Virus record (IMG/VR): IMGVR_UViG_3300037247_000508
Span: 1 to 38,672 of that record
Reading direction: 5' to 3' (one strand)
DNA from: a virus
DNA length: 38,672 nucleotides
Shown here: piece after piece, positions 8,147 through 35,967 of the stretch
How positions within the stretch are numbered: the stretch's first letter is position 1
How the letters are laid out: every line of letters starts with the position of its first letter
Position numbers and translations under genes: made by a program
The notes under the pieces: generated by a model
What the model saw: the letters and a program-made list of their open reading frames with translations, nothing else
What the model was told of the DNA's origin: nothing
The model's database searches: none

Positions 8147-8543
8147 TACATCATTAGAAGTACAAACGGAAATTGTTAAATTGCTTAAGGCATCCAATGC
8201 CATTGCCGCGATTGTTAAAACACTTATTTATGATACAGTCCCCGATAAAACCGATTTTCCATTTATTAATATTCCACCTTTTGATAGTGCGACAGAAGAA
8301 ACAAAAGATAAGGATGGGCAGGTTCATGATGTTCAAATTGATACATGGTCAAGAACAAGTGGGCAAAAACAAACACGCGAATTAATTAAAGCTATACGTG
8401 ATGCAGTTCATCGTGTAACATTCACTATATCAGATGCTACAGTTCTTTTTAGTCGTGTTACCAACACAAGAGTATTGATGGATTCAGATAAACGCACTAT
8501 ACATGGAATTATAGAAATGCAAATTAAGGTTCTTTCAGATTAG
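8139..8543 (+). CDS. Tail terminator/completion protein (DUF3168-like)
   Basis: About 134 residues from GTG 8139, chosen because AAAGG lies nine bases upstream; an in-frame TTG at 8130 abuts that site. The DUF3168 plan is visible: LEVQTEIVKLLKAS near the N-terminus, YDTVPDKTDFPFINI, HDVQIDTWSRTSGQKQTRELIKAIRDAVH, VTNTRVLMDSDKRTIHGIIEMQIKV. These proteins cap the tail tube at its head-proximal end. It overlaps the gp10-like gene and precedes the tail tube genes. Confidence 0.8.
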   Translation: MADTSLEVQTEIVKLLKASNAIAAIVKTLIYDTVPDKTDFPFINIPPFDSATEETKDKDGQVHDVQIDTWSRTSGQKQTRELIKAIRDAVHRVTFTISDATVLFSRVTNTRVLMDSDKRTIHGIIEMQIKVLSD

Positions 8544-8552
8544 GAGATTAAA

Positions 8553-8963
8553 ATGTCAGGCGAAGATGGAATTAATGTAATATTACAGGTTGATGATGGG
8601 GCAGCTGGTTTTGATATTCTTGGTGGTCAGGTTAGCACCACTTTAAATTTGCAGACAGTTATTGCAGATACTACCGATAAAGACGGTGCAGGATGGCAGG
8701 GAAGCCTGGGAACCACCAGAAGCGGTGATGTTTCGGTCAATGGCATTCTTGATGCTACAGATGCTGCCTGGGAAACTTTACGCGCCGCATGGCTTGCGGG
8801 TACATCAGAATCATGTGAATTAATTTTAAATGCAGCAGGTGATAAATGGGCAGGTGATTTCTTTGTTGAAGCATTGCCCGGCGCAGGTGATATTGGTGGT
8901 GCAACCACATATGATTTCACACTAAAATCAAACGGTGTTTTGACTTATACAGATATACCATAG
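8553..8963 (+). CDS. Tail tube protein, copy 1
   Basis: 136 residues, TP901-1/GTA-like major tail protein pattern: GINVILQVDDG, GGQVSTTLNLQTVIADTTDKDGAGWQ, TTRSGDVSVNGILD, FVEALPGAGDIGGATTYDFTLKSNGVLTYT. Such proteins polymerise into the hollow tail tube. The preceding TAGGAGATTAAA is a strong ribosome site and is repeated exactly before the next gene. The next gene is a close paralogue, with this copy about seven residues longer. Either copy could be the main tube subunit. Confidence 0.8.
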   Translation: MSGEDGINVILQVDDGAAGFDILGGQVSTTLNLQTVIADTTDKDGAGWQGSLGTTRSGDVSVNGILDATDAAWETLRAAWLAGTSESCELILNAAGDKWAGDFFVEALPGAGDIGGATTYDFTLKSNGVLTYTDIP

Positions 8964-8972
8964 GAGATTAAA

Positions 8973-9359
8973 ATGTCAGGTGAAGACGGAATTAATGTAA
9001 TATTAAAAGTGGGTGCAAATACGCTGGGTGGGCAGGTTAGCACCACCCTCAATTTGCAAACGGTTATGGCTGATACTACCAGTAAAGATGATGCTGGATG
9101 GCAGGCCATGATACCCACAACACGCAGTGGCGATGTATCAGTTAATGGTATACTTGATACCGGTGATACTGCTTATGAAGCTTTACGTGCCGCATGGGTG
9201 GCAGGAACTGCCATTGCATGTACATTGGTGCTAAATCTTGCGGGCAAACAGTGGGCAGGTAGCTTTTTTGTTGAAGCATTACCCGGTGCCGGTGATATTG
9301 GATCTGCATCTACTTATGATTTTACACTAAAATCTGATGGTGTTTTAACTTATACTTAA
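8973..9359 (+). CDS. Tail tube protein, copy 2 (tandem paralogue)
   Basis: 128 residues, colinear with copy 1 through the whole length, sharing MSGEDGINVIL, GGQVSTTLNLQTV, TTRSGDVSVNGILD and FVEALPGAGDIG. It is slightly shorter near residues 13-20 and at the C-terminus. The leader TAGGAGATTAAA and first codons are nearly identical to copy 1, so the whole gene unit was duplicated. Synonymous and amino-acid differences are spread along the gene, so the duplication is not very recent. Both may be incorporated into the tube. Confidence 0.8.
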   Translation: MSGEDGINVILKVGANTLGGQVSTTLNLQTVMADTTSKDDAGWQAMIPTTRSGDVSVNGILDTGDTAYEALRAAWVAGTAIACTLVLNLAGKQWAGSFFVEALPGAGDIGSASTYDFTLKSDGVLTYT

Positions 9360-16951: not shown

Positions 16952-17161
16952 ATGGCACAATACACAGAAGAAACAGAAACACACGTAACTATAAAAAATG
17001 ACGGGGCAAAAGAAGTTCGCATCGTTACTATCGTTTTAAAAGACGGTGTTGAGGTAGGACGATCTAATCATAGAACAATTATACCTTATGATGCAGACGT
17101 TCCTGCTAAAATAGAGAATTTTATTAATGCCAAAAAAGGCAAACAACCCAAAAAGGAATAA
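16952..17161 (+). CDS. Small acidic/basic protein, unknown
   Basis: 69 residues preceded by AAAGGAAATGCA. Sequence THVTIKNDGAKEVRIVTIVLKDGVEVGRSNHRTIIPYDADVPAKI suggests a small beta-sandwich; the tail is Lys-rich. Phages of many kinds carry such short proteins after the fibre gene (sometimes chaperones), but no direct evidence shows this. Co-directional with the lysis genes. Confidence 0.45.
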   Translation: MAQYTEETETHVTIKNDGAKEVRIVTIVLKDGVEVGRSNHRTIIPYDADVPAKIENFINAKKGKQPKKE

Positions 17162-19189: not shown

Positions 19190-19545
19190 AATTAGATACA
19201 TGGGGTAAAAAAGCAACGGCAATTGTTGCAATTATTGCCCTTATTGGGTTAATCGGGACTAAGTTAAACCTTAATTGGCCTAAAAATGCCTATATGTCAG
19301 ACGTAGCAGCCGCACAAGAGCCATTAAAGAAAAAAAATGATGCACAGGACCGAGAACAGGCAAAGATAGCCACAGAGCTTTATAATATACAGAAACGGGC
19401 TATCAGAAGAGAATTAAGAGCGGTTCAAAAAGAAATGGAAGGGATGGACAGCGTGCCAGATCGTTTAATTGATGATGAGGCAGATTTAATAAGTGATCTT
19501 GAATATTATAATGAGGAATTAAAAAAAATTAATCCACCAAGATAA
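19186..19545 (+). CDS. Single-pass membrane protein with coiled coil
   Basis: 119 residues, overlapping the Rz1-like stop by four bases. The N-terminus has a hydrophobic helix (ATAIVAIIALIGLIGTKL), followed by a charged helical region to the end (EPLKKKNDAQDREQAKIATELYNI...). It is the last plus-strand gene of the lysis/tail block and ends 30 bases before a convergent minus-strand gene; no terminator hairpin is visible in that gap. It may be an additional lysis accessory protein, but this is only positional inference. Confidence 0.5.
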   Translation: MKLDTWGKKATAIVAIIALIGLIGTKLNLNWPKNAYMSDVAAAQEPLKKKNDAQDREQAKIATELYNIQKRAIRRELRAVQKEMEGMDSVPDRLIDDEADLISDLEYYNEELKKINPPR

Positions 19546-19575
19546 ATTCATTTATTTTCCCTATTAGCACTTTCA

Positions 19576-19821
19576 TCATTTAGGAAAAATATTATTATCA
19601 TTTCTATCAAAAAAAAGTTTAAAATTGTATTTTAATTTCAGATAAAAAGATAAAATCAATATACTACCTAATGTAAATATTATAGTTTGAAATGGCCATT
19701 TATACAAAAGATAAAGCCATAACCACGGTGCAGCAATTAAAATAAAATATCCCAAGAATTTTAACCATCCTCTTATTTTCAAATAATTGTGAACTTCTGT
19801 TATTTCTTCTTTTTCAGTCAT
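19576..19821 (-). CDS. Small membrane protein, unknown
   Basis: 81 residues with two hydrophobic segments (FLGYFILIAAPWLWLYLLY and FQTIIFTLGSILILSFYL) and a charged N-terminus. GAGG lies before the ATG. It is the last gene of the leftward block. No family is recognised; membrane accessory proteins such as superinfection-exclusion factors often have this form, but nothing here proves that role. Confidence 0.5.
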   Translation of the reverse strand: MTEKEEITEVHNYLKIRGWLKFLGYFILIAAPWLWLYLLYKWPFQTIIFTLGSILILSFYLKLKYNFKLFFDRNDNNIFPK

Positions 19822-19830
19822 AATAAAACC

Positions 19831-20361
19831 TCAATCTTCATTAATTTTATAAAGCCTTTTAATACAATCTGGTGATTTATTTACCACATTATTTTCTGAC
19901 TTATTATTTTCTCTTTTTAAATATCTGACTTGTTCACCGGACAAAGAACCTCTTTGAAACTTATGCATCTCTATCAAAGTAGATTTTTTTGTATAAAAAT
20001 AATCAGGAATATAAATTATAAATTCATCTTCTTTTAATGAAATATCACATTGACGAATATTTATAGGTTCATCAATCATATCTTTTAATAATGGAACATC
20101 AATTCTGCAACTATTGCCGGCATGGCCGTGTGTAACTAGTAACCAGTCCCCATTGATAATTTTAAGGGATCTTTCATCATCATCTGTGCCCACATAAAGA
20201 TCAATATAATCACCTGGATTTATATTAAATTTCTTCAAAAAATCAATCTTGGCAGTAATTCTTAGCCTGAAAGACTTTTTATATTTTACAAGGCTGATGG
20301 CCACATTTTCCCATCTTTTATAATGTACAGACATTCCAAATTTTTTAAAACCCATAATCAT
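19831..20361 (-). CDS. Unknown protein, leftward block
   Basis: 176 residues, mixed alpha/beta: FRLRITAKIDFLKKFNINPGDYIDLYVGTDDDERSLKIINGDW looks like a SpoVT/AbrB-type or swapped-hairpin sheet (I.P.G....D.DE..L.I). The C-terminal region (FQRGSLSGEQVRYLKRE) could be a small helical DNA-binding segment (CIKRLYKINED end). AAGGA precedes ATG 20361; a second ATG follows two codons later. The first codons overlap the upstream gene's stop. Function unknown. Confidence 0.5.
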   Translation of the reverse strand: MIMGFKKFGMSVHYKRWENVAISLVKYKKSFRLRITAKIDFLKKFNINPGDYIDLYVGTDDDERSLKIINGDWLLVTHGHAGNSCRIDVPLLKDMIDEPINIRQCDISLKEDEFIIYIPDYFYTKKSTLIEMHKFQRGSLSGEQVRYLKRENNKSENNVVNKSPDCIKRLYKINED

Positions 20362-20588
20362 AAATCCTTATTAAAATTAAATTCCATTTTTTCAGCTTTT
20401 TTTAGATATTCCATACAGTCAATAATATCTTTTTTCCATGAACAGATACCAATATAATCCACATATTTGACTTCAATAAGCTTTCTATCTTTAGCCCCAT
20501 TAAATTGACCAATATAAAAAATGAAAGTCATACTGATGATAATTAAAATTGACATTTTTATAAACGAGATAATTTTGGAAAGTGGCAT
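20358..20588 (-). CDS. Small single-pass membrane protein
   Basis: 76 residues. One N-terminal helix (MSILIIISMTFIFYIGQF), then a soluble tail with two cysteines (IGICSWKKDIIDCMEYLKKAEKM). The pattern C-x7-C-x3-L is shared with the neighbouring gene product at 20599-20862 (ICIEKRDYLKCYDHILEALKK), so the two may be diverged paralogues. AAAGGA precedes the start. Function unknown. Confidence 0.5.
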   Translation of the reverse strand: MPLSKIISFIKMSILIIISMTFIFYIGQFNGAKDRKLIEVKYVDYIGICSWKKDIIDCMEYLKKAEKMEFNFNKDL

Positions 20589-20598
20589 ATTAAATCCT

Positions 20599-20862
20599 TT
20601 AAAGGGATGGATATAGGGAAGGCTTTTTTAAAGCTTCTAAAATGTGATCGTAGCATTTTAAATAATCACGCTTTTCAATACAGATCTGATGTATGTATTT
20701 TACTTGCATCTGGGTTTGTAATTCTCTCAAATCACCAATGATATAACCACCAGTATATGTAAGAGCGACAAAAGCAACGCAGGCAATTAATTTAACAATT
20801 GTCCCTATGGAAATTTCACCATCTTTAAGTAAAAATAATTGCGCAGTTTTAGAAAATTTCAT
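20599..20862 (-). CDS. Small membrane protein with two-Cys tail
   Basis: 87 residues from ATG 20862, which overlaps the end of the upstream gene by 14 bases; a longer frame upstream would lie entirely inside that gene. One membrane helix (VKLIACVAFVALTYTGGYIIG), then QVKYIHQICIEKRDYLKCYDHILEALKK. The tail resembles VKYVDYIGICSWKKDIIDCMEYLKKA in the next gene, suggesting duplication. A weak ribosome site fits translational coupling. Function unknown. Confidence 0.5.
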   Translation of the reverse strand: MKFSKTAQLFLLKDGEISIGTIVKLIACVAFVALTYTGGYIIGDLRELQTQMQVKYIHQICIEKRDYLKCYDHILEALKKPSLYPSL

Positions 20863-21169
20863 GACATTGGCCAGGTGTATATTTAATAGGCGGATCATAT
20901 TGTATTTCTTTATCAATTGGTTTACCATCAAAACAGGATATATCTTTATAAAGGCAAAAGTCTTCACCTTCCTGTGTAACAAAACCGCGTCTTAATTGAC
21001 CAATACCAAACCAAGAACGATGAGCCCAAAAAACATGACCTTTTTCCAGCAATTCAGATTTTAAGATATTAGCATCATTTTGTAATGATTTAATATCACC
21101 ATTAAGAGTTTCATTTTCCTCAAATATCTTAGGATATAAAACCCGTGCGATTTTTTCTCTTAATGTCAT
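20849..21169 (-). CDS. Unknown protein with N-terminal coiled coil
   Basis: 106 residues. Helical region KIFEENETLNGDIKSLQNDANILKSELLEKGH, then an aromatic-rich part (VFWAHRSWFGIGQLRRGFV) and a Cys/His-containing tail. AATAAGGAAAAGAA gives a good ribosome site. A junction element with a GCCCA/TGGGC hairpin lies before it. No family recognised. Confidence 0.5.
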   Translation of the reverse strand: MTLREKIARVLYPKIFEENETLNGDIKSLQNDANILKSELLEKGHVFWAHRSWFGIGQLRRGFVTQEGEDFCLYKDISCFDGKPIDKEIQYDPPIKYTPGQCHEIF

Positions 21170-21184
21170 TTCTTTTCCTTATTT

Positions 21185-21216
21185 GCCCAATTAATATGGG
21201 CGTTTAGTAATTATTA
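21185..21216 (-). repeat. Junction element copy d (stop-hairpin-SD type)
   Basis: Minus strand reads TAATTACTAAACGCCC, then a loop, then GGGC, with GCCCA/TGGGC pairing (21197-21201 with 21185-21189). The TAA is the stop codon of the gene at 21204, and the ribosome site of the next gene follows. Confidence 0.6.
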
Positions 21217-21470
21217 TTTATTTCTTCAATTCTTGGTCCATAACGTATTTCTGAATGACATATTTCACTAGGAAAATATTCTGATTTTATGGGGCTATCT
21301 TTACCCTCATTTATACAATCAATATATCCAAGTGCCCGCTGTAATTTTTGTTTAGTAATCAACATCAGAATTTCTTGACTTTCTGATAATTTTTGTAAGC
21401 GGTTAATTTCATTTTGCATGGATTCAATATGATCCATTAAATCAACTTTTGATTGTTTGAGTAGGTTCAT
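21204..21470 (-). CDS. Unknown coiled-coil protein
   Basis: 88 residues, largely helical (VDLMDHIESMQNEINRLQKLSESQEILMLITKQKLQRAL) with Cys residues in the last third. GGAAAGGAAAGATA before the ATG is a strong ribosome site. It is the first gene after the 358-base gap that carries the tRNA-like element. The stop codon forms the start of a repeated junction element. Function unknown. Confidence 0.5.
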   Translation of the reverse strand: MNLLKQSKVDLMDHIESMQNEINRLQKLSESQEILMLITKQKLQRALGYIDCINEGKDSPIKSEYFPSEICHSEIRYGPRIEEINNNY

Positions 21471-21660
21471 TATCTTTCCTTTCCGTTCCCATCAATAGTC
21501 GTTAAAATGTTTTTCGTATATTCATCACCGCGCAAAACCCTCAAGTGGTTAACCTCAAGTTATGAAGATTGCAGTGGCCGAGGGAAGAATACACGAGAAC
21601 CCTTATCCGGCTTTGCCCACGCTTCACCGATTTACCAAATCGTCAGGCGTTTATTTGTTT
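21471..21660. other. Non-coding gap with small repeats
   Basis: No supported ORF on either strand. Seen here: a direct repeat CCTCAAGT (21539-21546 and 21553-21560) around the palindrome GGTTAACC (21547-21554), and a 6-bp hairpin CGATTT/AAATCG with a three-base loop (21628-21642). Short ORFs crossing this gap are translations of the tRNA-like sequence (GGIRTHGHR-type peptides) and are not genes. It may hold regulatory sites or precursor RNA for the tRNA-like element. Confidence 0.5.
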
Positions 21661-21800
21661 ACCTAGTGGTGGGATTCGAACCCACGGCCACCGAAGTATC
21701 ATTACATGCTTTGCTTCAATGATCTTGCTATGTCTCATCATTAGTCCTCAGTATTAAGCTTAACCAATTGGTATCTTATACCATACTCTGAAACACTAGG
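21661..21800 (-). ncRNA. tRNA-like element, 140 nt, with perfect T-arm
   Basis: Minus strand ends GTGGG TTCGAAT CCCAC CACTAGG T (21685-21661), a perfect T-arm followed by a seven-base acceptor strand. Its exact complement CCTAGTG occurs at 21800-21794, which would close a molecule of about 140 nt, too long for a normal tRNA. Between them lie a long D-side hairpin, AATGAT/ATCATT with a 13-base loop, and GAAG/CTTC. No standard anticodon arm was found and CCA is not encoded. Alternatives: an expanded tRNA relic, a tRNA mimic, or an attachment-site copy of a host tRNA 3' end. Confidence 0.45.
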
Positions 21801-21805
21801 TTAGT

Positions 21806-21833
21806 GCCCGAAAAACGGGCGTATAGTGTTAAT
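21806..21833 (-). repeat. Junction element copy c
   Basis: Minus strand reads TAACACTATACGCCCG TTTTT CGGGC; TAA is the stop of the gene at 21829 and the 5-bp GCCCG/CGGGC hairpin lies between it and the tRNA-like element. A further inverted repeat AACACTA/TAGTGTT (21792-21798, 21824-21830) encloses the hairpin. Confidence 0.6.
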
Positions 21834-22053
21834 CTTCTTCTGGCACTTCCGCACCCTGTATAAGAGTATAATTAGGGATAGGTGTTAATTCAAATTCTTC
21901 GTTGTCTTGAATACCGTGTGCCAACACATCACCGAATGAAATCTCAAATCCCTGAAAAATATCTCTGATGGAGCTATCTTGTAGACCGGCATATTCAGTT
22001 AAATCACTAGCTAAATCTTTTGCTTGTTTTCTTGATAAAAATAATTTTTTCAT
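21829..22053 (-). CDS. Small acidic protein, unknown
   Basis: 74 residues: basic first part (MKKLFLSRKQAKDLASDL), then acidic (GIQDNEEFELTPIP, GAEVPEED). AAGAAAGG before the ATG lies in the loop of a small hairpin of the junction element. Its size and composition resemble early phage proteins that bind host factors, but no family is recognised. Confidence 0.5.
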   Translation of the reverse strand: MKKLFLSRKQAKDLASDLTEYAGLQDSSIRDIFQGFEISFGDVLAHGIQDNEEFELTPIPNYTLIQGAEVPEED

Positions 22054-22058
22054 AATCT

Positions 22059-22085
22059 GCCTTTCTTGGCGTTTAGTAATTATTC
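22059..22085 (-). repeat. Junction element copy b
   Basis: Minus strand TAATTACTAAACGCC AAGAAA GGC, with TAA the stop of the gene at 22080 and the loop carrying the ribosome site of the next gene. The 15 bases TAATTACTAAACGCC are identical to copy d. Confidence 0.6.
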
Positions 22086-22277
22086 GTAAGCGCCGATTGT
22101 CGTTAATTTATCATTGTCAAAATCAAATGCGGTATAGAAGTATGAAAATCCTTTAATTTTAGGGTTTTCAGAATGCTCTTTCAACTTCCATTCTTTGCCT
22201 TTTTCTGGTAATGGTTCGCCAATTCTTTTGAATAATTCGGCTACTATTTCTCTATCAGTGTATTTGGATAAGCTCAT
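22080..22277 (-). CDS. Small protein, first gene of the leftward operon
   Basis: 65 residues from ATG 22277, preceded by CAGGAGAAAATA; the longer open frame to 22400 crosses the divergent promoter region and has no better start. Sequence MSLSKYTDREIVAELFKRIGEPLPEKGKEWKLKEHSENPKIKGFSYFYTAFDFD suggests a helix followed by a small sheet. Likely among the first leftward products, because it follows the divergent promoter. Function unknown. Confidence 0.5.
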   Translation of the reverse strand: MSLSKYTDREIVAELFKRIGEPLPEKGKEWKLKEHSENPKIKGFSYFYTAFDFDNDKLTTIGAYE

Positions 22278-22288
22278 TATTTTCTCCT

Positions 22289-22312
22289 GCCCGTAATCGG
22301 GCGTAAAGTATT
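22289..22312 (-). repeat. Junction element copy a
   Basis: Minus strand AATACTTTACGCCCG ATTA CGGGC directly before GGAG, so a 5-bp hairpin sits just upstream of the ribosome site of the first leftward gene. It shares ACTTTACG with the plus-strand elements and ACGCCCG with copy c. Confidence 0.6.
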
Positions 22313-22321
22313 TCATAATTA

Positions 22322-22370
22322 GTATTGACTTATTCCCTTTTATTTCATATCTTGTTTCATAAGTCAATAC
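22322..22370. promoter_or_regulatory. Divergent promoter/operator with 11-bp inverted repeat
   Basis: GTATTGACTTA (22322-22332) and TAAGTCAATAC (22360-22370) are a perfect inverted repeat with a 27-base spacer. Each arm contains TTGACT. On the plus strand TTGACT (22325-22330), 17 bases, TATCTT (22348-22353) is a good promoter for the gene at 22386. On the minus strand TTGACT (22367-22362) has only a weak -10. A protein bound to both arms would cover both -35 boxes. Confidence 0.65.
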
Positions 22371-22385
22371 ATAAAGGTTATGAAA

Positions 22386-22886
22386 ATGGAAAATAAGCAT
22401 AAAATAGGATTTATAAAACCATGCACCGGTGTTATGCCGAGCGAGAAACAGCGCAAGGAATTAGAAAAATTCGGCTGTACGGTGCATGACGATCTGCAAG
22501 CGGCACTGGATGATATTACACGGGGTGATGAAGTGTTGGTTGTTATCAGTCCGGCTGTACTCGGGTCTAAAATTCCCGAAGTCATGGCGACTTTATGTGC
22601 AAAGCAAGCTTCTCTATATAGTATAGTATCTGAAAAAGAATATAACACTTGTGATGTAAACGACATTGTAAGCGCGAGAAACGAGCTATCAGAGCGCAAA
22701 ACCGCTTATCTGGCTAATCGTACCGGAAAAGCTAAAGGCGGTCGCCCCTCAAGCTTAAGCGTGGCACAGAAGCAGGAAATGCGTGATCTAATTGATACCG
22801 GCATGACCCGCGATAAAATAATGAGCCGGTTTAATTGTTCTGCATCCACTATATCAAGGGTGTTAAATGCAGAGGTGTTTGAATGA
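22386..22886 (+). CDS. Serine-recombinase-like protein without catalytic residues (pseudo-resolvase)
   Basis: 166 residues from ATG 22386 (AAAGG eight bases upstream; ATG 22380 is too close). The whole resolvase/invertase plan is visible: KIGFIKPCTG in place of (Y)ARVST, DDITRGDEVLVV in place of L.PGD.LVV, SPAVLGS in place of KLDRLGR, the long helix near 92-112, KAKGGRP, and a C-terminal HTH (RDLIDTGMTRDKIMSRFNCSASTISRVL). The nucleophile Ser aligns with Cys13, and the motif Arg/Asp residues are lost, so recombination is unlikely. DNA-binding regulator is inferred. Its stop overlaps the methyltransferase start. Confidence 0.72.
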   Translation: MENKHKIGFIKPCTGVMPSEKQRKELEKFGCTVHDDLQAALDDITRGDEVLVVISPAVLGSKIPEVMATLCAKQASLYSIVSEKEYNTCDVNDIVSARNELSERKTAYLANRTGKAKGGRPSSLSVAQKQEMRDLIDTGMTRDKIMSRFNCSASTISRVLNAEVFE

Positions 22887-23608
22887 AACTTGATGTATTA
22901 GAATTATTTGCTGGTATTGGCGGATTTACCGAAGGATTAGAGGCTACCGGTGGATTTAAAACCGTTGCTTTTGTTGAAAAAGATGAATTTCGCCAGAAAG
23001 TTTTAAAGAAGAATAACCCGGGTGTAGAGGTGTATGATGAAGTTACCAATTTCAGATATAAAAAGAATGTGGACTTGGTTACGGCGGGTTTCCCCTGCCA
23101 GGACGTGTCTATCGCTGGAGAACGTGCCGGACTTACCGGCGAACGTACAGGGCTGTTCTGGTATGTCATACGCACCCTTTGCATGGTGGGACGGACAAAA
23201 GCATTGTTGGAGAACGTGGCAGACTTGCTTACTAACGGGCTATCAACAATACTCGGAGCCTTGGCCACGTTCGGGTATGACACGGAATGGCATTGCATAC
23301 CGGCTTCCTATGTTGGTGCCTGGCATGAACGGGACAGAATCTGGATATTTGCCGACCCCAACGAAATCAACCCACAAGGGGTCTGTAAGGGGCCGATTTT
23401 GGGGCAGTCCAACTTATCGCAGCAACTTACACGAAGCTTTGAGAAATGGGAAGGACGATCCAATTTGCCCGAGTCCAGATTTTGTAGAAAAAATGATGGG
23501 GTTCCCGACAAAGTACACAGACTTAAAGCGTTAGGTGATGCGGTGGTTTCACAGATACCAGAAATTTGGGGTAATGCAATTTTAGAAGCGGATAAAAATA
23601 ATGGGTAA
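22883..23608 (+). CDS. DNA (cytosine-5) methyltransferase
   Basis: 241 residues. Motif I LELFAGIGGF (7-15), motif IV GFPCQDVS with catalytic Cys72, motif VI LENVADLL (109-116), motif VIII HERDRIWIFA (148-157), and the C-terminal RLKALGDAVVSQIPEIWGNAI (motifs IX-X; Asp replaces the usual Asn in LGNAV). It transfers methyl groups to cytosine in a specific sequence, probably protecting phage DNA from restriction. The target recognition part between VIII and IX is short (about 45 residues). A second open frame in the same DNA (23253-23534) also looks like methyltransferase-associated protein. Confidence 0.88.
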   Translation: MKLDVLELFAGIGGFTEGLEATGGFKTVAFVEKDEFRQKVLKKNNPGVEVYDEVTNFRYKKNVDLVTAGFPCQDVSIAGERAGLTGERTGLFWYVIRTLCMVGRTKALLENVADLLTNGLSTILGALATFGYDTEWHCIPASYVGAWHERDRIWIFADPNEINPQGVCKGPILGQSNLSQQLTRSFEKWEGRSNLPESRFCRKNDGVPDKVHRLKALGDAVVSQIPEIWGNAILEADKNNG

Positions 23609-25175: not shown

Positions 25176-25742
25176 ATGTTCGATAAAATAAAACAATTCA
25201 TAGATGATAACAAGCCTGTTCGAAATGCGAGATTGAGAGAATGGAAACTTTGCGCGGAAACATTATATGATTATGTTGATGCTGTAGAAGTTTATCCTGG
25301 TGGGACAGGCCAGAATATTACCGTAACAGATAAATTGATAATTATACACAGTGATACATATACTGATAATATTACCCTCTTTGGAAATGCAAAACTCATG
25401 ACTTGGCCTGAATCAAAAAATATTGCAATTGGTTCACTTAGATCAAAAGGGCAAGCGATGGGTGAATGGCCACCAGTAGAAATTGCACCTAAAGGCGGAG
25501 GTGCAAATGTATGGCGGAAAGGTGATGTTGTAAAGAAAGATATCCCAACAATAGATAATAATGATTCAGTCCTTGTGGGGTGGGTGAGGCTCACAGATGG
25601 AACAGCAAACGTTCTAGGAAAAGACTGGGCACTTATGAGAATTACCCGCGATGCCTACGATAAATCTGAGCATTTAATGGGATTTCAAAACAAAAGCGTC
25701 TCACCAGACGTTCAAAAAAGTGACCCCCCAGGGTGCGCATAA
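25176..25742 (+). CDS. Unknown beta-rich protein
   Basis: 188 residues from ATG 25176, preceded by GTGAGG; a GTG four codons earlier is part of that site. Basic helical N-terminus (DKIKQFIDDNKPVRNARLREWK), then strands (NITVTDKLIIIHSDTYTDNITLFGNAKLMTW) and KDWALMRITRDAYDKSEHLMGF. Ends in a hairpin-forming C-rich stretch (ACCCCCCA). Function unknown. Confidence 0.5.
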   Translation: MFDKIKQFIDDNKPVRNARLREWKLCAETLYDYVDAVEVYPGGTGQNITVTDKLIIIHSDTYTDNITLFGNAKLMTWPESKNIAIGSLRSKGQAMGEWPPVEIAPKGGGANVWRKGDVVKKDIPTIDNNDSVLVGWVRLTDGTANVLGKDWALMRITRDAYDKSEHLMGFQNKSVSPDVQKSDPPGCA

Positions 25743-25760
25743 TTTAGAGGCGTGGGGGGT
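25723..25760 (+). other. Hairpin ACCCCCCA/TGGGGGGT at a gene end
   Basis: Perfect 8-bp inverted repeat with a 22-base loop that spans the stop codon of the preceding gene. No U-run follows, so it is not a typical intrinsic terminator; it could protect mRNA from exonucleases. Confidence 0.45.
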
Positions 25761-33096: not shown

Positions 33097-33362
33097 TGAC
33101 GCTGGTTCAAACAAGAGAATGTGATTTTGCCTGTTGTAAATCAAAACCGAGTTTCCCGGATGGCAAAGGTAGCTGCTTATTTTTAGGAAAGAAAGGCTGT
33201 AAAATAATGACCGGCGAAGCCAATTTACCGCAAGGAAATTGTCCGGCACTCCCAGAAATGACAGCACAAGATGGTTTTAATTACCGTTGCAGAGATTGGC
33301 CCGATAACATGCCCGGCAGAGACACGGGCGGATGCTGCAGGGAATGGATAGATGGCAAATGA
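33096..33362 (+). CDS. Cysteine-rich small protein
   Basis: 88 residues with ten cysteines: ECDFACCKSKPSFP, GSCLFLGKKGCKIM, NCPALPEM, YRCRDWP, GGCCREW. The spacing suggests a metal or iron-sulphur site, in the manner of small YkgJ-like Cys proteins, but no family is secure. It overlaps the long repeat protein gene by 11 bases in another frame. Confidence 0.5.
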   Translation: MTLVQTRECDFACCKSKPSFPDGKGSCLFLGKKGCKIMTGEANLPQGNCPALPEMTAQDGFNYRCRDWPDNMPGRDTGGCCREWIDGK

Positions 33363-35967
33363 AAGTTTATTCCCAAATGGTGGTTCAAGTTCCGGTCCGG
33401 GCTCATGGGGATTTACGGGTGGTTCAAATTTATGGGATGGTATTGATAATGGCATAGCAACGCCTGTTGATGGTGAATTTGATAGTGTAAGTGGTGCCAG
33501 TGTTGAGGGAACAGTATTAACTTTAGATTTAACTTCCACAACAATTGCAGATGCAGATACAGTAACAAACATTGATATAAAAATTCGTGCTGATGGTGTT
33601 GATGCTGATGATGGATTGGATGTTGAACTTGTCATAGGGGGCACAGGACAAGGCGTAGTTTCACAAGCTATAACTTCCACAACAACAGATTATACTTTAA
33701 ATACTGCCGCATGGAATGTTGATCGAACCGCCGCACAATTAAATGGTGCCCAGGTTACAATAAGCAATACACAAGCTGGTATGCCTACATCATCAACCTG
33801 GACAGTATACGAGGTTGAAGTAGATATAACATTTACACCGGCAGCGGCAGATTTTACCGCAGAATTAAGTGCGGTTGCCCGGTCCCGGACGGTCCCATCA
33901 TTGGATGTTGAGGCCGAGATTGATTTTACCGCCGAATTAACAGCCATTGCCCACAGCAGGACGGTGCCTGATTTGGATGTAAGTGTAACAGCCGCATTTC
34001 CTAGCGGTTGGGACCGTGTGGTAAAATTATCATCAGATAATACAAAGGTTGCCGGGTCTGGTTCGCATACAGATATTGTTTTATTGGTTGACCTTTCAAA
34101 CGTACCCACAGAAGCCATAGATGATGGTAGTAATTCAGCCAAAGTGAATGGGGATGATCTTGCTTTTTCATCTGATAGGGCTGGCACAAGTCGTTTAGAT
34201 ATTGATGTTGTCAATTTCATTGCTGATGCAACACCAGGTAACCGAAAATGTCTTATAAAAGTAAAAATCCCCAGTCTTTCAACATCTGCTGATACTGATG
34301 TTCATATGTGGTATAAAAATGCTGCTGCAACTCTGCCCGCGGTTGGTAATGCTTTTGGACAATATGCAACATGGTCAAATGAGGAATTAGTTTTAGAATT
34401 TGCTAATATTGATGCTGCAGATGTAACTGACAGAACAGGAAATCACACAGTTTCAGATGTTGGAACTTTTAGCGCGTCTGATGATGATGGCTTAAGTTTT
34501 GATGGTTCAACTAATTATTTTTCTGTTCCTGATGCAGCGGGACTTGATTTTTCAACAGCAGTATCTTTAAGGGCCTTTGCTTCTGATGTAAATACTACAG
34601 CAGAAGGGCATATTATATCTAAACCTGTTACTTCCGGTTGGACAAGCCCGTTTGCTGCTTATGCAATGCGTTCTTCATCTGCTGAAAAATTGGAAGGTTG
34701 GGTCGCCACTTCATCAACCAGAGACGGGAGAGTATTTAGCACAACAGATATTGCCACTGGAACAACACCACATCATCTTGCTTTTACTTATGATCAAATA
34801 AATGGCCAAATACATGTTGATGGTACAGAAGAAGATACTGATGCAGCAACTTTAACAATTGATAACACTGCGGAACCTTTAGCAATAGGAACCCGCAGCA
34901 CTACAAATACGGGTGAATTTTTTAATGGTATTCTTAAGAGCATTCAAATTCGTGGTGCCTTTTTAACTGATGGCTGGATTTCTACAGAAAGCAATAATTT
35001 AAGTGATCCTGCAAATTTCTGGAATACAGGAACACCAGAATCAGCGGAAGGATTTACGGCAGAATTAAGTGCGGTTGCCCAGTCCCGGACAATACCCGCG
35101 CTGGACATTGAAGCAGAGATTGATTTTACCGCAGAGTTAAGTGTAGTTGCCCGGCCTCGCACTATCCCCGCGCTTGATGTTGAAGCAGAAATTGATTTTA
35201 CTGCTGATCTAAGTGCGATTGCCCGGCCCCGTATTATACCAGCACTTGATGTTGAGGCCGAGATTGATTTTACATCTGAATTAACAGCCGTTGCCCGTAT
35301 CCGCACCACACCTGATATTGATATCACTGTTACAACAGCATTCAGTGCTGATTTGAGCGTTGTGGTGAGGTCCCGTACGGTACCCGCACTTGACGTTGAA
35401 GCAGAAATTGATTTTACATCTGAATTAAGTGCGGTTGCCCGCAGCCGTACGGTCCCGGATATTGATATCACTGTTACAACAGCATTTAATGCTGATTTAA
35501 GCGCGGTTGCCCGGTCCAGGACGGAACCCGCACTTGATGTTGAGGCCGAGATTGATTTTACCGCCGAATTAACATCAGTTTCCCGGTTGCGAACAATCCC
35601 CGCGCTGGACATTGAGGCCGAGATTGATTTTAACGCTGATCTAAGCAATGTTTCCCGCAGCCGTACCTTGCCGGATTTGGATGTTGAGGCCGAGATTGAT
35701 TTTACATCAGAACTAAGTGCCGTTATCCGTAACCGGACAATACCCGCGCTGGACATTGAGGCCGAGATTGATTTTACTGCCGAATTAAGCGCGGTTGCCC
35801 GCAGCCGGACGGTCCCGGATTTGGATATAACCACAGTAATTGCATTGGTTTTTATTCCGCCAAACAGAACTATTAAATATTTGTTAAAAAAACGATCAAT
35901 ATTGCGTCTAAGACAAAATAGAACTATATTTACCATTAAGAGAAACAGGAGCATTAAAAATGAGTGA
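33352..35967 (+). CDS. Repeat-containing virion/tail-fibre-like protein with LamG-type domain
   Basis: 871 residues. Order: beta-rich N-terminal domain (residues 1-160), two 24-residue repeats of the form FTAELSAVARSRTVPSLDVEAEID (about 162-210), a DUF2341-like region (WDRVVKLSSDNTKV...NVHMWYKN), a LamG/concanavalin-like domain (SLRAFASD...WVATSSTRDGR...HHLAFTYDQINGQIHVDG...LAIGTRS), eleven more 24-residue repeats (567-830), and a very basic tail. A surface adhesin or fibre is likely from the sugar-binding-type domain and repeats. The start overlaps the previous gene. Confidence 0.65.
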   Translation: MANESLFPNGGSSSGPGSWGFTGGSNLWDGIDNGIATPVDGEFDSVSGASVEGTVLTLDLTSTTIADADTVTNIDIKIRADGVDADDGLDVELVIGGTGQGVVSQAITSTTTDYTLNTAAWNVDRTAAQLNGAQVTISNTQAGMPTSSTWTVYEVEVDITFTPAAADFTAELSAVARSRTVPSLDVEAEIDFTAELTAIAHSRTVPDLDVSVTAAFPSGWDRVVKLSSDNTKVAGSGSHTDIVLLVDLSNVPTEAIDDGSNSAKVNGDDLAFSSDRAGTSRLDIDVVNFIADATPGNRKCLIKVKIPSLSTSADTDVHMWYKNAAATLPAVGNAFGQYATWSNEELVLEFANIDAADVTDRTGNHTVSDVGTFSASDDDGLSFDGSTNYFSVPDAAGLDFSTAVSLRAFASDVNTTAEGHIISKPVTSGWTSPFAAYAMRSSSAEKLEGWVATSSTRDGRVFSTTDIATGTTPHHLAFTYDQINGQIHVDGTEEDTDAATLTIDNTAEPLAIGTRSTTNTGEFFNGILKSIQIRGAFLTDGWISTESNNLSDPANFWNTGTPESAEGFTAELSAVAQSRTIPALDIEAEIDFTAELSVVARPRTIPALDVEAEIDFTADLSAIARPRIIPALDVEAEIDFTSELTAVARIRTTPDIDITVTTAFSADLSVVVRSRTVPALDVEAEIDFTSELSAVARSRTVPDIDITVTTAFNADLSAVARSRTEPALDVEAEIDFTAELTSVSRLRTIPALDIEAEIDFNADLSNVSRSRTLPDLDVEAEIDFTSELSAVIRNRTIPALDIEAEIDFTAELSAVARSRTVPDLDITTVIALVFIPPNRTIKYLLKKRSILRLRQNRTIFTIKRNRSIKNE
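35050..35841 (+). repeat. Eleven tandem 72-bp repeats
   Basis: Encodes eleven 24-residue units of consensus FTAELSAVARSRTVPALDVE followed by AEID. Units differ at a few sites, with two variants where VEAEID is replaced by ITVTTA. All are in frame without gaps. Two further units occur upstream in the same gene (near 33850-33990). Confidence 0.9.

Follow-up and report, generated by a model that had tools for sequence, protein, structure and literature searches.

What does a short sequence do when it recurs, always in the same orientation, at the junctions of small genes within a single viral operon? This question is raised by four repeats that lie between 21,185 and 22,314 of the window, by which we mean the whole 38,672-bp stretch of DNA that was analysed. 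The reading we favour is that they are copies of one repeated intercistronic RNA boundary element of a leftward operon, and that this element acts in the mRNA. Judging from the nucleotide sequence, we consider this proposal about equally likely to prove right or wrong, and rival explanations are therefore weighed below wherever the evidence that bears on them is described.

The window is a bacterial virus record of 38.6% GC that carries a siphophage-type packaging, portal, head and tail block on the plus strand. Eight small genes constitute the leftward operon, which runs from 22277 down to 19576, and the rightward genes begin with one for a resolvase-type HTH protein (22380-22886), followed by that for a cytosine methyltransferase. 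The GC content of the leftward operon (19546-22379) is 31%, compared with 39% in the rest of the record, and this disparity suggests that the operon has a different origin from its surroundings. The nearest terminase match is to Paraburkholderia phage IPK (~50% identical), and the viruses with the closest terminases (42-50% identity) have neither the element nor any of the leftward genes. Searches of viral contigs and phage records with those leftward genes that were tried returned no relative, a search of viral contigs likewise returned none for the HTH gene, and a family search of the leftward genes gave no convincing match for any of them. Two adjacent minus-strand genes of the operon (20358-20588 and 20599-20865) code for small proteins that appear similar by eye, each with a hydrophobic stretch followed by a like tail rich in Cys and Lys, and these are possibly duplicated small membrane proteins.

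Several features elsewhere in the record were also recorded. A match to the abiF RNA family is present on the minus strand at 25723-25759 (score 39.2, gathering score 37), and in the neighbouring genes that were searched PADLOC detected no defence protein. A large gene for a laminin-G-type protein (33352-35967, plus strand) has a long open frame on its opposite strand, and near its 3′ end there are DNA repeats (35248-35756) whose spacing is in multiples of 72 bp. Identical ribosome-site and start regions (TAGGAGATTAAAATGTCAGG; 8541-8590 and 8961-9010) precede the neighbouring genes 8553-8963 and 8973-9359, which probably arose through tandem duplication.

The element is 24-29 nt long, and all four of its copies (named a to d in the direction of the operon) reside on the minus strand, with the 3′ ends of their hairpins at 22289, 22059, 21806 and 21185, exactly where the original prediction had placed them. 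Common to all copies is the sequence ACTWWACGCC, from which a hairpin follows; an alignment of the four shows that this sequence and a closing GGC are kept, and that the base directly after the hairpin is A in every case. The core had been proposed in the longer form TAAnnACTAWACGCC, which is exact only in copies b and d (these have the 17-mer AATAATTACTAAACGCC in common), whereas copy c departs from it by one mismatch (TTAACACTATACGCC) and copy a by two (GAAATACTTTACGCC). The GCCC/GGGC hairpin of that description also needs some amendment: a hairpin is indeed present in each copy, but in copy b the stem is reduced to GCC/GGC.

Table 1. Positions of the repeat copies and of associated features in the window
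Feature	Positions	Strand	Description
Copy a	22289-22314	-	GAAATACTTTACGCCCGATTACGGGC; leader of leftward gene 1; 5-bp stem, 4-nt loop; covariance model 33.8 bits
Copy b	22059-22082	-	TAATTACTAAACGCCAAGAAAGGC; junction of 22080-22277 / 21829-22053; 3-bp stem, 6-nt loop; covariance model 27.8 bits
Copy c	21806-21832	-	TTAACACTATACGCCCGTTTTTCGGGC; after gene 21829-22053; 5-bp stem, 5-nt loop; covariance model 33.1 bits
Copy d	21185-21213	-	TAATTACTAAACGCCCATATTAATTGGGC; junction of 21204-21470 / 20849-21169; 5-bp stem, 7-nt loop; covariance model 32.5 bits
Ribosome site AGGAG after copy a	22284-22288	-	begins at -11 from ATG 22277
Ribosome site AAGGA after copy d	21176-21180	-	begins at -11 from ATG 21169
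Leftward gene 1	22080-22277	-	65 aa; no convincing family match
Leftward gene 2	21829-22053	-	74 aa; no convincing family match
Leftward gene 3	21204-21470	-	88 aa; no convincing family match
Leftward gene 4	20849-21169	-	106 aa; no family match
Divergent control region	22322-22370	.	12-bp perfect inverted repeat GTATTGACTTAT / ATAAGTCAATAC (22322-22333 / 22359-22370); one TTGACT box per direction
tRNA-like stretch	21661-21801	-	8-nt complementary ends ACCTAGTG (21801-21794) / CACTAGGT (21668-21661); T arm 21669-21685

Given that four short sequences might resemble each other by accident, the significance of the repeat was assessed in several ways. A covariance model built from all four copies scores them at 27.8-33.8 bits when the virus is scanned, with the next site at 12.4. 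Since the copies match this model by construction, the fair test is the leave-one-out procedure, in which weight matrices made from three copies gave the held-out copy 14.0-20.3 bits; outside the elements, the highest score over both strands was 11.9. Thus, neither scan revealed a random non-junction site with a score equal to those of the copies, an outcome that had been named in advance as one that would count against the element. A pattern search permitting up to two mismatches yielded five matches, compared with a mean of 1.29 in shuffled sequences (2 of 100 shuffles reached five), and is not decisive alone. The held-out matrix scores reject a chance origin, and the repeat of four copies is real. 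One further weak candidate (17121-17140, plus strand) was rejected, as it scores 8 bits and lies within the end of a gene.

The placement of the copies within the operon is equally distinctive. All four hairpin midpoints are intergenic, on the gene list used, in a record whose intergenic share is 4.6%. The element is present in the operon leader and in each of the three gaps of at least 26 nt (26, 358 and 34 nt), and it is absent from all four operon junctions where genes overlap or are separated by at most 10 nt, which are those located downstream of leftward gene 4. In accordance with the original prediction, the ribosome site of the next gene follows copies a, b and d, starting at -11 in each instance, and in copy b this site (AAAGG, 22064-22060) shares positions with the hairpin. 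Copy c differs in that no gene follows it directly, the next start codon being 358 nt past the stop.

The original prediction also held that the TAA of the core serves as the stop codon of the upstream gene in copies b, c and d. A stop codon does fall inside the element in all three, but its register is not fixed: the first TAA is used in copy b (22082-22080), a TAA shifted by one in copy c (21831-21829), and the second TAA in copy d (21206-21204, inside ACTAAACGCC). Because the register differs among the copies while ACTWWACGCC remains constant, the coding sequence of the upstream gene does not account for the core.

The hairpins were evaluated in isolation and in context. As isolated structures, those of copies a to d have predicted free energies of -7.9, -2.8, -8.3 and -7.3 kcal/mol, and in predicted local folds the hairpins of a and d form at 0.95-1.0 and those of b and c, according to the context, at 0.66-1.0. 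Across the whole record, only 1.5% of GCC trinucleotides open a perfect stem of at least 5 bp, and 7.2% open one of at least 3 bp, and therefore stems in four of four copies are not expected from the background. The fifth stem pair is G-C in copies a and c and A-U in copy d, with both sides changed, and when the pairing partner is slid by one column the fraction of paired cells falls from 90% to 44-50%. The covariation score was reached by 78 of 500 shuffles, a control that is weak with four sequences and one compensated pair. A search of Rfam returned no family at the four copies, either at the gathering threshold or at E values of up to 5.

These structural attributes are relevant to the possibility that the copies are instead DNA sites, of the stoperator type, for a repressor that could be the product of the divergent HTH gene. 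The copies have a single orientation, are intergenic, and are confined to one operon that adjoins this HTH gene and its symmetric control region, a layout that is also seen for stoperators (PMC5712189). The control region itself (Table 1) looks like an operator common to the divergent promoters of the leftward operon and the HTH gene. However, the inverted repeat that it holds (GTATTGACTTAT) is a different sequence, and the core is not found there; nor does any copy occur elsewhere in the genome, compared with about 24 in L5. Moreover, changing loop length and a compensated pair are better suited to RNA pairing than to fixed half-sites. The variable loop (4-7 nt) and the compensating change in the stem favour an element that pairs as an RNA structure over one that acts as a DNA operator, and we regard repressor sites as an unlikely explanation.

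Short GC-rich hairpins between genes also call to mind weak intrinsic terminators, on one strand or the other, and T runs do follow the motif in two of the matches found in other genomes (L005 and L065). However, a terminator scan of 19400-23000 finds none at the copies on either strand, and no T run follows any copy. The lack of a T run on both strands indicates that the copies are not intrinsic terminators, and we give this explanation hardly any credence.

A different role in transcription would be served if each copy were a promoter combined with a stem-loop, such that transcripts start just upstream of each hairpin. Mobile cassettes of promoters and stem-loops have reportedly been described by Arbiol et al. 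(2010; cited in PMC4177764) between small variable-region genes of T4-type phages, where they were proposed to mark sites of gene shuffling. The present element likewise places a stem-loop between small genes, but there is no convincing promoter in its copies, and the phage is of another type. Minus-strand promoter-like matches do end at the core in copies b (22106-22079) and d (21240-21213), and a TTGACT box is located just upstream of copy a. However, such matches are not commoner than in shuffled sequence (19 versus 17.1 ± 4.1), and copy c lacks one at the corresponding position. Accordingly, we consider promoter cassettes to be quite improbable. The likeness of ACTAWA to a T7-type promoter was also pursued, and this reading fails because no gene resembling a single-subunit RNA polymerase was seen among those searched and because the next bases are CGCC, not a G at which transcripts would initiate.

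Translation control, RNA processing and the marking of gene-insertion sites, the roles raised by the original prediction, are conjectural. If the four copies indeed constitute an RNA boundary element, then it would most likely act, as far as sequence can indicate, by causing the polycistronic message to be processed or protected. The conserved single-stranded flank ACUWWAC leads directly into a small hairpin that starts at the conserved GCC, and this flank together with the base of the stem would most likely be recognised by an RNA-binding protein or nuclease of the host or the phage. Cutting or protection of the message at the element would then give every downstream cistron a short hairpin at its 5′ end together with an accessible ribosome site, and downstream initiation would thereby be separated from upstream translation. 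More direct gating of translation is unsupported by the folding model, since hairpin formation has no consistent effect on access to the ribosome site: with the 5′ arm of the hairpin blocked, this site is predicted to open in copies a and b and to close slightly in copy d. Points against an RNA boundary element include this inconsistency, the low number of copies (four) and of compensated pairs (one), the 3-bp stem of copy b, and the absence of a gene directly after copy c.

The region beyond copy c deserves separate description. No leftward gene occupies the roughly 330 nt between this copy and the ribosome site of gene 3, and a tRNA-like stretch lies there (Table 1) that includes a CTTCGG sequence resembling a variable arm. 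The only Rfam match in this region is a weak one to tmRNA (16.7 bits, below the gathering score), and ARAGORN at normal settings reports no tRNA or tmRNA gene there. A functional tRNA was therefore rejected, as none is recognisable at normal thresholds, and the stretch has the appearance of a tRNA end, either decayed or captured, or else of an attachment-site remnant. Among the genes searched, none was noticed to code for an integrase.

Copy c resembles a junction that has been split by a tRNA-like insert, and this brings into consideration the idea that the copies are relics of cassette assembly, in which units composed of a gene and its junction were copied or recombined and function is limited to that of an ordinary ribosome site. 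In keeping with this idea, the element makes up almost the whole of the gap at both b and d, and stoperators provide a documented case of short repeats that recombine with each other (PMC5712189). However, mere relics do not readily account for hairpin pairing that survives sequence change, or for a core that stays constant though the register of the stop codon shifts, and we judge this explanation to be rather unlikely. In the reading that we favour, the copies of the RNA boundary element would themselves have arisen through duplication or capture of gene-plus-junction cassettes as the operon was assembled.

Similar sequences were also sought in other genomes. In the viral collection, the pattern TAATTACTAAACGCC recovered 23 stretches, of which L007 alone is element-like by inspection, while TTACTAAACGCCCN{3,10}GGGC gave 7 matches and ACTAWACGCCCN{4,7}GGGCA gave 38; most of the matches from these three patterns have no junction context. 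In four other viral contigs (L007, the L079 family, L097 and L111), a ribosome site and ATG follow immediately after the motif, and each contig that was examined over its full length has a single strong copy. Placement at a gene start was observed for 4 of 29 distinct viral motif matches, compared with 5 of 173 other GCCC hairpins at the same loci (one-sided Fisher p = 0.026, post hoc), and this enrichment is a lead only, because the criterion was tightened after the matches were seen. Bacterial and archaeal matches exhibit no gene-start enrichment (1 of 36 versus 0 of 96). Conceivably, though we assign this notion a low probability, the element belongs to an RNA boundary signal of broader distribution (ACTAAACGCCC-loop-GGGC plus a ribosome site), found repeatedly at gene starts in unrelated phages and recognised by one shared RNA-binding protein of host or phage origin. 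A separate observation in L007 is that three GCCCCC/GGGGGC junction hairpins lie between small genes (1990-2450), only one of them with an ACTAAAC flank. The candidate origin of the repeat as host sequence borrowed by the phage was rejected after a scan of 84,980 species, in which 38 single matches were distributed across unrelated phyla and showed no enrichment in any genus; by inspection, these bacterial and archaeal matches mostly lack junction context.

With these results in hand, the element can be described as local to this virus and new in sequence, although the kind of junction element to which it belongs is already known. A small number of phage clusters have junction elements of this repeated type. 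The present example offers a compact case, in that one short operon contains four copies with a defined hairpin and flank, and its element-free junctions provide internal controls. Consequently, an RNA signal, a repressor site and an assembly scar could be told apart with a small number of constructs.

Among known phage repeats, the stoperators of cluster A mycobacteriophages (L5 and D29) are also asymmetric intergenic sites with a fixed direction, as are the four copies here, all of which are intergenic and on the minus strand. However, stoperators are 13-bp protein-binding sites with about 24 copies genome-wide and a known repressor, and no hairpin is described for them (PMC5712189). The 17-bp inverted repeats of cluster O mycobacteriophages are likewise short, repeated, in many cases intergenic and of unknown function, but they have a fixed 3-bp centre and invariant arms, number 34 copies, have no meaningful orientation, and are intragenic in approximately one third of cases (PMC4351075).

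The original prediction compared the repeat in concept with the start-associated sequences (SAS) of cluster K mycobacteriophages while noting that the sequence is different, and this comparison is sound, as the cluster K repeats also occur at gene starts in one orientation (PMC3203893). SAS and extended SAS (ESAS) are short asymmetric repeats found at successive gene starts, mostly in one orientation and only among non-structural genes. They can overlap the upstream stop codon, and their function is unknown (PMC3203893). Copies a, b and d share with SAS the adjacency to a start codon and the single orientation, copy c being the exception. In contrast, the 13-bp SAS consensus (GGGATAGGAGCCC) is not matched here, where all four cores consist of ACTWWACGCC plus a hairpin, and the copy numbers differ (11-19 for SAS versus four). 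The SAS itself holds the Shine-Dalgarno sequence and lies 3-7 bp from the start, whereas here the ribosome site comes after the element (overlapping it in copy b). Likewise, little support for RNA pairing was found by the authors who described the inverted repeats of ESAS (PMC3203893), whereas pairing is supported for the present element. On the basis of the sequence features compared here, the element is nearest in concept to the cluster K start-associated sequences, yet it is not a member of that group.
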